Of a stretch of DNA of 64,000 nt, positions 9,940-29,361 are shown in pieces. The notes under the pieces are model-generated. The model was not told where the DNA came from. It saw only the letters and a program-made list of their open reading frames with translations, and made no database searches. Source of the stretch: Pirellulales bacterium (GTDB lineage: Bacteria > Planctomycetota > Planctomycetia > Pirellulales > PALSA-1355); assembly GCA_022844125.1 (NCBI GenBank), contig JALHMI010000009.1, forward strand, positions 248,001 to 312,000. The letters are read 5' to 3'. The stretch's first letter is position 1; every line of letters starts with the position of its first letter. Position numbers and translations under genes: made by a program.

Positions 9940-11213
9940 GTGAACGCGGCAAACTAGACCGGCTTCGCAGCGACGTGCGCATCTTGCGCACCGGGCCGCG
10001 CGAGTTCCGTCTGCTCGATCCAAGCACCGGCGCGAACTTCGAGCTGGGCGCCCGCGAGCGTTACATGCTCGTGCTGCTGCACGAGTGCGACACCGCCAAG
10101 GAACTCTGCGCCGCGTTCGAATCGCGGTTCGGCCTCAAGCTCCAAGAGCGCGAATGCCTGGAGTTCTGCGAGCAACTGCGGCGTCAGGGCTTGCTCGAGG
10201 GAAGTACCCCCCAGCCGGCCGTGTCGGACGAGATTCCTCATCGCTCCTCCCTCCCGCTGCAACTCCGTGGCGAGCCGGCCAACGTCTTCTTCGACCTGCT
10301 TACGCTCGTGTTCGGCTGGCTGATCCATCCGGTCTGGCTCTGGCTCGTGGTGCCGCTCCTCGCGTTCGAAGTGCTGTTGATCGCGGGCGAGTGGCAGCGG
10401 TTCGCTCGCGAATTGTACAACGTTCGCACGAGCATGCACATCGTGGCACTGTTTGCAGTTACCTATGCCCAGATCGTGTTCTTCGTGAACCTGCCGATGT
10501 CGCTGGCGATGGGAATCGGCTGCCGCAAGTTTCGCGGCCGCGTGCGCAGCTTCGGCCTGACCTGGGGTAACTGGATTCTGCCCACCGTCTCCTTCTTTAC
10601 CGACATCGGCGACTCGATCGTCGGCATGACGGCGCGCGACCGCCGCACGCAGATCGCCCTGGGCATCGTCTTGCCGGCCGCGATAGGCGGGTTTTACGCG
10701 TTGCTCTGGGGCATCAGCACCCGCGCGACGGACGCCTATCAACTGCTGATCCTGATGATCATCCCGTGCGCCGCGATGACACTCTATCAGTGCAATCCCT
10801 TCTCGATCTACTCGACCGCCCACTGGGCACTCGCGTCCTGGCTTGACGACTGGCGGCTGCACAGCCGGGCCATCGAGGAAACCAAGGCCTGGTTCTGGGG
10901 CCGCATTTCGCCCGAACCACTTACCGGCCGCGAACGGCGCTGGCTGCGAACTTACGGCGTGCTTCACTACGCGCTGCGGTTTGTCGCCAATTCGGTCCTG
11001 CTCGGCATCGCCGGGTACGTCGTAACGCACTACTTCGGCGCTCCCGGCGCCGCAATCTTGCTCATTTTGCTCGTGTGGTGGAACCGCGCGTATCTCGCGC
11101 CGTTGTGGCGCGCAACAGGAATGTCCTGCCAGGAAATTCAACTCGCTGCCGCACGACTATGGCGCGGTCGCGGACAACATCACAGCCGGATGCCGGAAAC
11201 CACCGAGGCTTGA
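9936..11213 (+). CDS. PqqD-domain plus M50-like membrane protein lacking the HExxH site
   Basis: A 425-residue protein. Residues 1-90 (RTGPREFRLLDPSTG...FELGARERYMLVLL) look like a PqqD winged-helix domain, which in other systems delivers peptides to modifying enzymes. The rest has about eight membrane helices in the pattern of the M50 (site-2 protease) proteins found next to HlyD adaptors. Where these carry HExxH followed by ACxxFGG, this one reads NLPMSLAMGIGCRKFRGRV (residues 185-203); the region before the distal aspartate is kept (FFTDIGDS). The zinc site is therefore lost and the protein is probably a non-proteolytic transporter partner. It overlaps the TPR gene by four bases and hlyD follows six bases later. 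Confidence 0.78.
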   Translation: MSERGKLDRLRSDVRILRTGPREFRLLDPSTGANFELGARERYMLVLLHECDTAKELCAAFESRFGLKLQERECLEFCEQLRRQGLLEGSTPQPAVSDEIPHRSSLPLQLRGEPANVFFDLLTLVFGWLIHPVWLWLVVPLLAFEVLLIAGEWQRFARELYNVRTSMHIVALFAVTYAQIVFFVNLPMSLAMGIGCRKFRGRVRSFGLTWGNWILPTVSFFTDIGDSIVGMTARDRRTQIALGIVLPAAIGGFYALLWGISTRATDAYQLLILMIIPCAAMTLYQCNPFSIYSTAHWALASWLDDWRLHSRAIEETKAWFWGRISPEPLTGRERRWLRTYGVLHYALRFVANSVLLGIAGYVVTHYFGAPGAAILLILLVWWNRAYLAPLWRATGMSCQEIQLAAARLWRGRGQHHSRMPETTEA

Positions 11214-26103: not shown

Positions 26104-26856
26104 TCACTTTGCCGACGAATCGCTTCGTCCTGCGCGCGGAATCGGCACCAGCATTCGCACCCGCCGCTGATACCGCGCATATTCCTCGCCGTGGTAAGCC
26201 AGCAGATCGCGCTCTTCGAGTTGCAGTGCAATGAGGCAGTAGGCCGTCGTGGCTGCAGCGAACAGCAGTCGGCCAGCCGTCATCGTCGGCGCGGCCCAAA
26301 ACGCGATCAGGAATCCCAGGATCAACGGGTGCCTGACCCAGCCGTAAAGTGTTGGCGTCCGAAACCGAAGCGGCGAGTAGTCATGCCCCTGCCAGTAAAA
26401 GTAGACCTGCCGCAGCCCGAACAGATCGAAGTGGTTAATTAGAAAGGTTGCAACCAAAGCCAGCAGCCAGCCGAACCAGAACGCACCCCAGATTCCCGTG
26501 CGAATCACGGGCGTGCTAATTTCCCAGACGACTGTCGGCAGCGGAATCCACAGCCAATACAAGAGCGCCAACAGCAGGCTGCTCACGAGCACATACGTGC
26601 TTCGCTCGATGGACAGCGGAACCAGACGCGTCCACCAGGTCTTGAAACCCTGCCGCGCCATCACGCTGTGCGGAATCGCAAACAGCAGCAGCAATCCCGC
26701 ATCCAGCAAGCCTGCGAGCGGCCAGTTCACGTCAACAACTGGCGCATCAATGGTTTTTGGAACAACCAAATCGCCGACGAATCCAATCGCATACAGAAAT
26801 GATCCCAGGAACATCACGTAGCACACCAGTCCATAAGCAAGCGTCAGATAACGCAT
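26104..26856 (-). CDS. mddA: MddA-like methanethiol S-methyltransferase (NnrU/isoprenylcysteine-methyltransferase-like)
   Basis: 250 residues with six or so membrane helices. The N-terminus MRYLTLAYGLVCYVMFLGSF, then LYAIGFVGDLVVPKTID, is typical of the MddA/NnrU membrane methyltransferases. The C-terminal SAM region includes YGWVRHPLILGFLIAFWAAP and LQLEERDLLAYHGEEYARYQ, matching the isoprenylcysteine-methyltransferase active-site pattern (RHPxxxG, ExxL..fGxeYxxY). MddA makes dimethyl sulfide from methanethiol and SAM, and related volatilisation of methylselenol is conceivable. It starts 15 bases after the lyase-methyltransferase fusion with a purine-rich ribosome site, so it is the third gene of the ArsR operon. 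Confidence 0.75.
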   Translation of the reverse strand: MRYLTLAYGLVCYVMFLGSFLYAIGFVGDLVVPKTIDAPVVDVNWPLAGLLDAGLLLLFAIPHSVMARQGFKTWWTRLVPLSIERSTYVLVSSLLLALLYWLWIPLPTVVWEISTPVIRTGIWGAFWFGWLLALVATFLINHFDLFGLRQVYFYWQGHDYSPLRFRTPTLYGWVRHPLILGFLIAFWAAPTMTAGRLLFAAATTAYCLIALQLEERDLLAYHGEEYARYQRRVRMLVPIPRAGRSDSSAK

Positions 26857-26871
26857 GGTCCTGTCTCCCTG

Positions 26872-28812
26872 CTAATGTTCTGCGCGAATAACCGCACAGA
26901 TGGCCAGCGGATGCCCGGTACGCGCATTGCGCCCCGACCAGAGGATTCTTGGATTCTTGAGCCCCGAGCGCTCGAGCCGCGCGAACATCGTCTCGCGGGT
27001 CAGCGCACCGCCAATGCAACGAAACCAATCGTTCAGATCACGGCGAATCTCGCCTGGCAGTTCCTCGGCCGCCACGATCTCGGCAAAGATCGTGCGTCCG
27101 CCAGGCTTCAACACCCGAGCCACTTCGCGCATCACGGCGTCCTTGTCGGGCGAGAGGTTGTAAATGCCGTTGGCCGTCAGCAGGTCGATGCTCGCATCGG
27201 GGAGCGGAATCCGATCGGCCGGGGCGTGCAGGAGTTCGAAGTTGGAGATGCCTGCCGAGCGCAGGTTCTCCGCCGCTTTGCGCAGCATCGAAGCGGACAA
27301 ATCGAGCCCGTACACAGTGCCGCTCGGGCCAACCGCGACGGCATAGTGGTACAGGTCGAGCCCCACCCCGCAGCCCAAGTCGAGCACGGTCTCGCCGGCC
27401 CGCGCATCGACGAACGGTTGCGGATTGCCCGCGCCGGTGAACGACTCACTGAGCCCCTCCGGCAGCCGCGAAAGCAGCTCCGGATCGTACCCCACGCTCT
27501 CGGCGAACTTGCGTCCGACGGGAAAGTTGAACTTCTCGCCGGGTGCCTCGGCCACTCGGCCATAACGTTCGCTGACGGCCGTCATGATTTCCTGGCCGCT
27601 CATGTCAGCTAGTGGCTTGCTAACCTGCCCCGAAGCCGTGGCGTTTGCAACACTCAGCGGTTCGCAACTGGCTCCAGATAGCGGGGACGAAACCGTGCTC
27701 GTGAGTTGCTGGACGACGTGTTCGATTTCGTGGCGGGTGGTGCTCCGTCCGAGGCTGAAGCGGATCGCGCCGGCGGCCCGATCGCGACTCAAGCCCATGG
27801 CTGCGAGCACCGGGCTCGCCGTTCCATGGCCGGCGTGACAAGCCGATCCGGTGGACGCCGCAATGCCATCGAGTCGCTGCAAGATGTCTGCTCCCTGCGA
27901 ACCGATAAAACTCACGTTCAACGTGTTGGGCAGTCGCTCCGTGGGATGGCCATTCAGCACCACGCTGTCACCGAACTGCTCAAGCAGCAATTCCCGGAAG
28001 TGGTCGCGCAGCTCGACGATGCTCTTAGCTTCGATCCAGTCCCGGCTAAAGGCACAAGCGGCCCCCAGCCCCACGGCGAGCAGCGCGCTTTCCGTTCCCG
28101 CGCGGCGACCTGCCTCCTGACCGCCGCCATGCAACAGTGGTGCAAGCGCCACGCCTTCGCGTATGAACAGCGCGCCTACGCCCTTGGGCGCATAAAGCTT
28201 ATGCCCGGCAACCGTTAGCAGGTCCACATTCAGCGCCTCGACGTCCACGGCGATTTTCCCCACGGATTGCGCCGCATCCGTGTGCAGCGGAACGTTATGC
28301 TCACGGGCGATGGCGCCGATTTCGGCGATGGGCTGAATCGTGCCAACTTCGTTGTTCGCGTGCATCACCGAAATGAGCACGGTACTGGGCCTGATCGCCC
28401 GGCGGATCTCCTGCGGATCGACCTGGCCATGCCCATCGACCTTCACCATGGTCACATCCGCGCCCAACCCCTCGAGAAACCTGAGCGGTGCCAGGACTGC
28501 CGGGTGCTCGATCGCCATCGTGATGAAGTGCGGGCGAGCGACTTCGGCGCGGCGGGCGAAATAGACGCCTTTGATCGCGTGGTTGTTGGCCTCGGTGCCG
28601 CCCGAGGTGAAGACGACCTCCGTCGGATCACTGCCGATCAGCCCGGCCACCTGTCCGCGCGCCTGTTCAATCGCGTCGCGCGCCTGCTGCGCGGCCCAGT
28701 GATCGCTCGACGGGTTGCCGAATTGATTTTCGAGATATGGCAGCATCGCCTCGCGGACTTGTGGGTCGATTGGTGTCGAACCGTTGTAGTCGAGGTAGAC
28801 GCGTCGGCTCAT
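26872..28812 (-). CDS. Selenocysteine-lyase/cysteine-desulfurase-like domain fused to an ArsM-like methyltransferase
   Basis: 646 residues. Residues 1-380 are a class V aminotransferase of the desulfurase type: YLDYNGSTPIDP, SGGTEANN, HTDAAQSVGK, PLP lysine in VAGHKLYAPKG, and catalytic Cys in TGSACHAGHGTASPVL. The Cys loop and following FSLGRSTTRHEIEHVVQQL resemble vertebrate selenocysteine lyase more than IscS (from memory). Residues 410-646 are a SAM methyltransferase like arsenite methyltransferase (VLDLGCGVGLDLYHYA, YNLSPDKDAVMREVARVLKP, WFRCIGGALTRE). Two arsenite-binding cysteines are replaced: GAGNPQ where ArsM has CGNP, and TANGIYNL where it has SNC. It starts within the arsR stop (ATGA) and precedes mddA. 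Predicted to release selenide or sulfide and methylate it. Confidence 0.8.
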   Translation of the reverse strand: MSRRVYLDYNGSTPIDPQVREAMLPYLENQFGNPSSDHWAAQQARDAIEQARGQVAGLIGSDPTEVVFTSGGTEANNHAIKGVYFARRAEVARPHFITMAIEHPAVLAPLRFLEGLGADVTMVKVDGHGQVDPQEIRRAIRPSTVLISVMHANNEVGTIQPIAEIGAIAREHNVPLHTDAAQSVGKIAVDVEALNVDLLTVAGHKLYAPKGVGALFIREGVALAPLLHGGGQEAGRRAGTESALLAVGLGAACAFSRDWIEAKSIVELRDHFRELLLEQFGDSVVLNGHPTERLPNTLNVSFIGSQGADILQRLDGIAASTGSACHAGHGTASPVLAAMGLSRDRAAGAIRFSLGRSTTRHEIEHVVQQLTSTVSSPLSGASCEPLSVANATASGQVSKPLADMSGQEIMTAVSERYGRVAEAPGEKFNFPVGRKFAESVGYDPELLSRLPEGLSESFTGAGNPQPFVDARAGETVLDLGCGVGLDLYHYAVAVGPSGTVYGLDLSASMLRKAAENLRSAGISNFELLHAPADRIPLPDASIDLLTANGIYNLSPDKDAVMREVARVLKPGGRTIFAEIVAAEELPGEIRRDLNDWFRCIGGALTRETMFARLERSGLKNPRILWSGRNARTGHPLAICAVIRAEH

Positions 28813-29216
28813 GTCGCCACCTTCAAACGCTGCTTCACCGGTGGGCCGCTCCGGCTGCCACGCCGTGCGGTCCGGGCTTTCTCGCGCTGGATGTCCGCGG
28901 CGTCGAGTTTTATAACTGGGTGCTCACGCCCGATGAGCTTGAGCAGATCTCGAACCAGTTTCGGGCGCGCCAGGTAGTAGCAGCGTAGCGCGCCATCCTG
29001 CGCTTTGTCGACCAGCCGCGCGAAACGCAAGACCGCCAGGTGCTGCGAGATGTTCGCTTGCCGGGCGGGTACCAGATCCTCGATGTCCGTGACGCACTTA
29101 GGTCCGGCGAGCAGTTCCTGCAGGATCATGAGCCGGGTGGGATGGGCGCAGGCCTTCAGCAGTTCGGCCGCCGCTTGTGAATTGGACAGGGCATCGGATG
29201 ACGCCATCGCGGGCAT
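28809..29216 (-). CDS. ArsR/SmtB-family metal(loid)-responsive repressor
   Basis: 135 residues; ATG 29207 is an alternative start three codons in. The winged helix is clear: LLKACAHPTRLMILQELLAG, then CVTDIEDLVPARQANISQHL and AVLRFARLVDKAQDGALRCY. Cysteines occur in LLKAC, GPKC and LRC, where thiophilic metals or metalloids could bind. An unusual basic tail (EKARTARRGSRSG) extends past the fold. A palindrome 13 bases upstream is the likely operator. It overlaps the next gene by four bases and should control the three-gene operon. Confidence 0.87.
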   Translation of the reverse strand: MPAMASSDALSNSQAAAELLKACAHPTRLMILQELLAGPKCVTDIEDLVPARQANISQHLAVLRFARLVDKAQDGALRCYYLARPKLVRDLLKLIGREHPVIKLDAADIQREKARTARRGSRSGPPVKQRLKVAT

Positions 29217-29228
29217 TCCTTATCTAGA

Positions 29229-29248
29229 ATATTCGAATTCGCGAATAT
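29229..29248. promoter_or_regulatory. Predicted ArsR operator
   Basis: ATATTCG and CGAATAT form a perfect 7-bp inverted repeat around AATTCG, placed 13-32 bases upstream of arsR and in the divergent gap before the cytochrome gene. ArsR/SmtB operators typically have this ATTC...GAAT dyad in AT-rich DNA, and this is an AT-rich island in GC-rich sequence. It could control both directions. Confidence 0.65.
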
Positions 29249-29361
29249 CATAAGGCCTTGGCCCTCAGCCAGGCAAGAGTGATCCACGTTGTGTTCGGCG
29301 CTTGGCTAGCGCAAACTAGATCCTGGCAAGATGACTCCCCGTAAGCTCCTCGAGGCCCCGC

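Follow-up and report, generated by a model that had tools for sequence, protein, structure and literature searches.

The window analyzed here is a stretch of 64,000 nucleotides from a Pirellulales bacterium (assembly GCA_022844125.1, contig JALHMI010000009.1, positions 248,001 to 312,000), and its minus strand carries an operon of three genes: arsR, a gene fusing a cysteine desulfurase (domain 1) to a methyltransferase (domain 2), and mddA, as seen in Table 1. The gene order, the fusion, and the family memberships are solid, and the operon combines ordinary enzymes in an unusual, conserved way. We tentatively read it as an ArsR-controlled route from cysteine through persulfide or sulfide to methanethiol (MeSH) and on to dimethyl sulfide (DMS), a reading drawn from sequence that may be right. 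A first-pass annotation had described the same layout and predicted volatile methylated selenium or sulfur as the product. The layout was found as described, with an ATGA overlap between arsR and the fusion gene and a gap of 15 bases between the fusion gene and mddA.

Distribution of the fusion

When 296 genomes from the order were searched, a second full-length fusion, 72% identical to that of the window, was found in a genome from another family (G421), and the fusion is thus present in 2 of the 296. The whole operon is repeated there (locus L126), with arsR, a fusion of 647 amino acids (aa), and an mddA whose product is 72% identical to the window copy. Therefore, the fusion is not a sequencing artifact, a frameshift or mis-assembly being ruled out as its origin, and the gene proposed in the first-pass annotation is real and conserved. 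No fusion was found in three further genomes of the window's own family. In four relatives (G369, G409, G640, and G446, whose contig is that of L010), arsR is accompanied by a nifS gene and a methyltransferase gene that are separate from each other, giving the unfused arsR-nifS-(rhodanese)-methyltransferase loci L127, L128/L010, L130, and L134, which are often accompanied by a secreted rhodanese, OsmC, and a cupin. The linkage of arsR, nifS, and methyltransferase is maintained in six genomes of several families. AlphaFold2 predicts the two domains of the fusion fairly confidently (pLDDT 75.4) with a disordered linker at residues 377-399, and the relative placement of the domains is not confident (pTM 0.56).

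At L010, a rhodanese fused to a DsbB domain (L010:3828-4754) follows arsR-nifS-methyltransferase. The operon of G421 is bracketed by a 160-nt inverted repeat (93%; L126:7343-7502 and 10825-10984). G421 has a related repeat upstream of its selD as well, which suggests that the repeat is mobile. Apparent SelD matches in L126 are due to this shared repeat and not to selD.

Domain 1 and its substrate

Residues 5-365 of the fusion match Pfam Aminotran_5 (2.5e-73), and both the lysine for pyridoxal phosphate (PLP), Lys205, and the persulfide cysteine, Cys325, are intact. In a 98-sequence tree made by a quick method, domain 1 falls in a clade of 90 (support 99) that is distinct from IscS/NFS1 (98) and also from mammalian selenocysteine (Sec) lyase, SCLY, which stands on a long branch. 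Domain 1 scores below the NCBIfam equivalog cut-offs for NifS (435 vs 530.75 bits) and IscS (358 vs 643 bits), and neither half of the fusion exceeds the cut-off of any NCBIfam model shown. The tree and the model scores rule out an IscS, the assignment on which the first-pass annotation could have foundered. Judged by these comparisons, domain 1 is a NifS-clade cysteine desulfurase (class V, NifS-like group I). The earlier "PLP lyase" therefore stands as a PLP enzyme predicted to release sulfur and is now named more exactly.

The specificity of human Sec lyase for Sec is due to Asp146, and in bacteria, enzymes from either NifS group accept both Sec and Cys (PMC3266270). When residues were matched by motif alignment (EHD/EHP, IVGHK/VAGHK, ACH), the position of Asp146 was taken by Pro104 in domain 1, and a proline is also found there in the cysteine desulfurase 5zsp. 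Domain 1 resembles SCLY in its PLP fold, its SPVL loop, and the histidine (His326) directly after the catalytic cysteine, but differs in lacking the Asp146 equivalent and in its place in the tree. The window's own genome, which is 100% complete, has no SelD over the cut-off (best match 63.8 vs 125 bits). Since SelD and the Asp146 equivalent are both absent, sulfur is favored over selenium as the predicted substrate. SelD is present in G421, where selD adjoins a different nifS copy than the fusion. That cluster (L132:7500-14200) holds selD, a NifS of the domain 1 clade, and selA and selB, the last two named by eye; its nifS reading frame has one in-frame TAG.

Domain 2

Residues 472-600 of the fusion match Pfam Methyltransf_31 (2.6e-28), a class I methyltransferase, and AlphaFold2 gave a pLDDT of 80.9 for domain 2 alone. 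Two of the three arsenic ligands of CmArsM, C72 and C174, are replaced by Ala461 and Gly549, and the third, C224, is kept as Cys599; the same holds in all six orthologues. In CmArsM, the C174A and C224A variants have no activity, and the C72A variant does not work on arsenite (PMC3877260). Domain 2 also scores below the ArsM models (NF008823 ArsM subfamily, 174 vs 263 bits; ArsM/AhpD, 198 vs 510 bits). Three-Cys ArsMs form one clade (97/91), and domain 2 lies outside it in a group of its own with modest support (83/68). A separate three-Cys ArsM, adjoining an arsC-like gene, is present in the same genome. Together, the cysteines, the clade, and this separate true ArsM rule out domain 2 as an arsenite methyltransferase, the other assignment that would have told against the first-pass annotation. 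In short, domain 2 shares with ArsM and AS3MT the fold, the motifs, and one ligand cysteine, but differs in the other two cysteines, a shorter C-terminus, and a separate clade.

The activity proposed for domain 2 would be that of the H2S and thiol S-methyltransferases MddH, MddM1/MddM2, and human TMT1A/TMT1B, and TMT1A-like genes follow domain 1 relatives. Domain 2 differs from these enzymes in being ArsM-like in sequence, and MddH/MddM are likened to it by their described activity. Several genomes of the phylum (L089-L112) encode TGA-containing probable selenoproteins that match NCBIfam ArsM_AhpD_UU and its kin. These relatives likewise lack C72 and C174, and the NCBIfam name "arsenite methyltransferase" may be wrong for them.

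MddA and its place in the operon

The window MddA reaches 341 bits over its full length against the NF045656 equivalog cut-off of 270, and those of L126 and L155 also exceed this curated cut-off. On these scores the assignment to the MddA family, which converts MeSH to DMS and also methylates H2S, is firm, and the gene called MddA-like in the first-pass annotation is a genuine MddA. The operon MddAs of L126 and L155 share 72% identity with that of the window, compared with 43-51% for the other MddAs encoded in these genomes. One of the latter is a second mddA in the window's own genome (G000:C10:185225-185935), which by eye is divergently oriented relative to a TetR-type regulator. An operon joining mddA to a desulfurase-methyltransferase fusion is not reported in the open-access literature searched, which is a part of the whole.

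In G409, the contig with arsR-nifS-rhodanese-methyltransferase stops inside a cupin gene (L130:1-150). Another contig (L155:9400-9485) opens with the remainder of the cupin gene, followed by dsrE (identified by Pfam) and mddA. Both contig ends show 16-bp inverted repeats together with an 8-bp target duplication, which is typical of an insertion sequence. Once the flanks are joined, the cupin gene regains its frame and dsrE-mddA comes to lie at the end of the operon. By this sequence evidence, mddA and dsrE almost certainly close the operon of G409, split by an insertion sequence. Since the flanks join in this way, mddA is linked in three of the six loci; arsR is conserved, and the neighbors expected from the first-pass annotation are thus kept.

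Neighbors of domain 1 relatives

Genes for domain 1 relatives are embedded in sulfane-sulfur islands alongside ArsR-rhodanese, SQR-like, and DsrE genes. Of 90 loci of the NifS clade, 40 had an ArsR-rhodanese within 5 kb, 19 an SQR-like protein, 18 MFS, 15 a UbiG-like methyltransferase, and 4 a TMT-like methyltransferase; these counts are rough because each family was sought with one reference sequence and the loci were sampled by similarity. Methyltransferase open reading frames (ORFs) were denser within 2.5 kb of nifS than beyond (12/362 vs 5/614, p 0.005), and 11 of the 12 near ones lay on the nifS strand.

Individual loci show the same company. On a plasmid of Methylocystis rosea, dsrE and nifS are directly followed by a gene that joins a methyltransferase to a PNP-UDP-phosphorylase-superfamily domain, and a second methyltransferase gene comes next (both at L156:6141-8287). 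The phosphorylase-superfamily domain would belong to the superfamily of S-adenosylhomocysteine (SAH) nucleosidase. The second methyltransferase is 32% identical to what we take to be human TMT1A, and the gene directly after nifS at L024 is presumably TMT1A-like (30%); both comparisons serve as leads only. One stretch of a proteobacterial metagenome-assembled genome (L072) holds an ArsM-like methyltransferase without C72/C174, an ArsR-rhodanese, a NifS of this clade, and an OsmC gene. The recurrence of nifS relatives beside methyltransferases and sulfur-transfer genes fits the idea of release followed by methylation put forward in the first-pass annotation.

Proposed pathway and alternatives

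In the proposed pathway, ArsR, with its two conserved cysteines, would control the operon, probably sensing a reactive sulfur signal or another thiol-reactive one. Domain 1, with PLP on Lys205, would take sulfur from L-cysteine and keep it bound to Cys325 as a persulfide. From there, the sulfur would pass to domain 2 as sulfide or by a relay to Cys599 and be methylated there with S-adenosylmethionine (SAM) to methanethiol; membrane MddA would add the second methyl, and DMS would exit the cell. We infer the substrate of domain 2, the Cys599 relay, the ArsR inducer, and the final product, and desulfuration followed by methylation by domain 2 and then by MddA is the most economical reading. A bolder version, which we regard as doubtful, makes the fusion a single-polypeptide methanethiol synthase, in which sulfur would move from cysteine to Cys325 and on to a persulfide on Cys599 and be methylated there without free sulfide. 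The fusion would then head a dedicated cysteine-to-DMS pathway, and pathways of this sort would have evolved on several occasions as desulfurases of this clade were paired with one methyltransferase or another.

No fusion of this kind was found in the open-access literature searched, which does not contradict the earlier statement that no such system had been described. The nearest precedent for a desulfurase fused to its sulfur consumer is MES, the metallopterin-dependent ergothioneine synthase of Caldithrix abyssi, for which a persulfide relay is proposed (PMC9516567). MES differs in its C-terminal desulfurase, its metallopterin partner, and its product. If the proposed pathway is true, it is an encoded route from cysteine to methanethiol and DMS that needs no dimethylsulfoniopropionate (DMSP), methionine, or external sulfide, and it lies in a phylum, Planctomycetes, that the main Mdd paper (PMC12904073) does not name. 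Such a route would mean that a toxic form of sulfur can be methylated while still bound to the enzyme, and it points to a function for a widespread NifS clade in the sulfur islands of many phyla.

Several points weigh against the cysteine-to-DMS reading. Arsenite methyltransferases are the closest solved folds and sequences to domain 2, mddA was not found adjoining three of the six operons with this methyltransferase, and SelD lies beside 6 of the 90 NifS-clade loci (one false match removed). The methyltransferase enrichment near nifS is subject to ascertainment bias and is drawn from related sequences. In addition, both MddA and MddH reportedly methylate H2S as well as MeSH (PMC12904073), so domain 2 need not do the first methylation and, by analogy, MddA alone may methylate H2S here. 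One alternative builds on this: domain 2 would methylate another thiol or persulfide from domain 1, protein-bound or small-molecule, and MddA would make MeSH and DMS from sulfide by itself. The single cysteine retained in domain 2, Cys599, and the sulfur carriers DsrE and rhodanese in relatives are in keeping with it, but the two serial methyltransferases after nifS on the Methylocystis plasmid fit two successive methylations, and we consider it still less likely than the selenium explanation, itself unlikely. In that explanation, the operon would serve detoxification under selenium stress, with domain 1 as a Sec lyase, domain 2 methylating selenide, and MddA producing dimethyl selenide. The histidine and SPVL loop common to the domain 1 clade and mammalian Sec lyase, the use of Sec by both bacterial NifS groups (PMC3266270), and the six selD-adjoining relatives, with selA and selB as well in G421, all point that way. 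Proline at the Asp146 position as in 5zsp, the genome's lack of SelD, and neighbors that are mostly sulfane-sulfur genes argue against it. Thus, from the earlier "selenium or sulfur," sulfur is favored and selenium is weakened, though some relatives adjoin selD; the fusion, MddA, the placement of both domains, the neighbors, and the pairing of release with methylation have held up.

Detoxification of arsenic or another metalloid, by an ArsR-controlled ArsM variant with thiolation by domain 1, is very unlikely. It would account for the nearest solved folds, the family of the regulator, and the metal efflux genes near L134, but all orthologues have other residues in place of the ligands C72 and C174, and C174A abolishes CmArsM activity (PMC3877260). 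Domain 2 is also outside the canonical ArsM clade (97/91), the genome has its three-Cys ArsM elsewhere beside an arsC-like gene, and no arsC or acr3 was seen adjoining the six operons. The least likely explanation is an ordinary housekeeping sulfur donor fused to a methyltransferase with no joint function. Cysteine desulfurases do serve many pathways and the fusion is rare (2/296 genomes of the order), but the arsR-nifS-methyltransferase linkage has been held in six genomes of several families, and pairings of nifS with a methyltransferase recur elsewhere.

Regulator and promoter region

Table 1. Features of the operon and its promoter region (positions in the window)
Feature	Position	Strand	Evidence
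arsR, ArsR/SmtB-family repressor, 135 aa	28809..29216	-	NCBIfam HTH_metalloreg, 74.5 bits, cut-off 55
Fusion gene, predicted NifS-clade cysteine desulfurase + SAM-dependent methyltransferase, 646 aa	26872..28812	-	Pfam, NCBIfam, orthologue L126
Domain 1 of fusion, predicted NifS-type desulfurase, aa 1-375	27688..28812	-	Lys205, Cys325 (loop SACHAG), Pro104, tree
Linker of fusion, aa ~376-397, predicted disordered	27622..27687	-	pLDDT < 50 at 377-399
Domain 2 of fusion, ArsM-like class I methyltransferase, aa ~398-646	26875..27621	-	Ala461, Gly549, Cys599
mddA, membrane methanethiol S-methyltransferase, 250 aa	26104..26856	-	NCBIfam NF045656
Putative ArsR operator, inverted repeat ATATTCG-n6-CGAATAT, overlaps -10 box	29229..29248	.	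Repeats in orthologous loci
Sigma-70-like promoter TTGCCT-18-TATGAT, weak consensus match	29247..29276	-	1 found vs 0.6 expected

Cys41 and Cys79 of ArsR are invariant in the seven orthologues aligned. These two cysteines and the best PDB match, the ArsR-family chain of 6o8l (8e-13), recall the sulfane-sulfur repressors SqrR/BigR/SoxR. However, the cysteines stand elsewhere in ArsR, the pair is absent from the SqrR-type positions, and the score is below the BigR model cut-off (46 vs 155 bits). Since the 6o8l chain has Ser and Tyr at the places of Cys41 and Cys79, ArsR is not a member of the SqrR/BigR group; by analogy, it may work like these sensors (PMC12423496).

The inverted repeat upstream of arsR, ATATTCGAATTCGCGAATAT, ends at 29248, which is also the end of the region covered by the first-pass annotation. 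In L126, L134, and L130, similar inverted repeats occupy the matching position upstream of arsR, and related half-sites are present in L127, L010, L131, and L037. At the sequence level, this putative operator is conserved.

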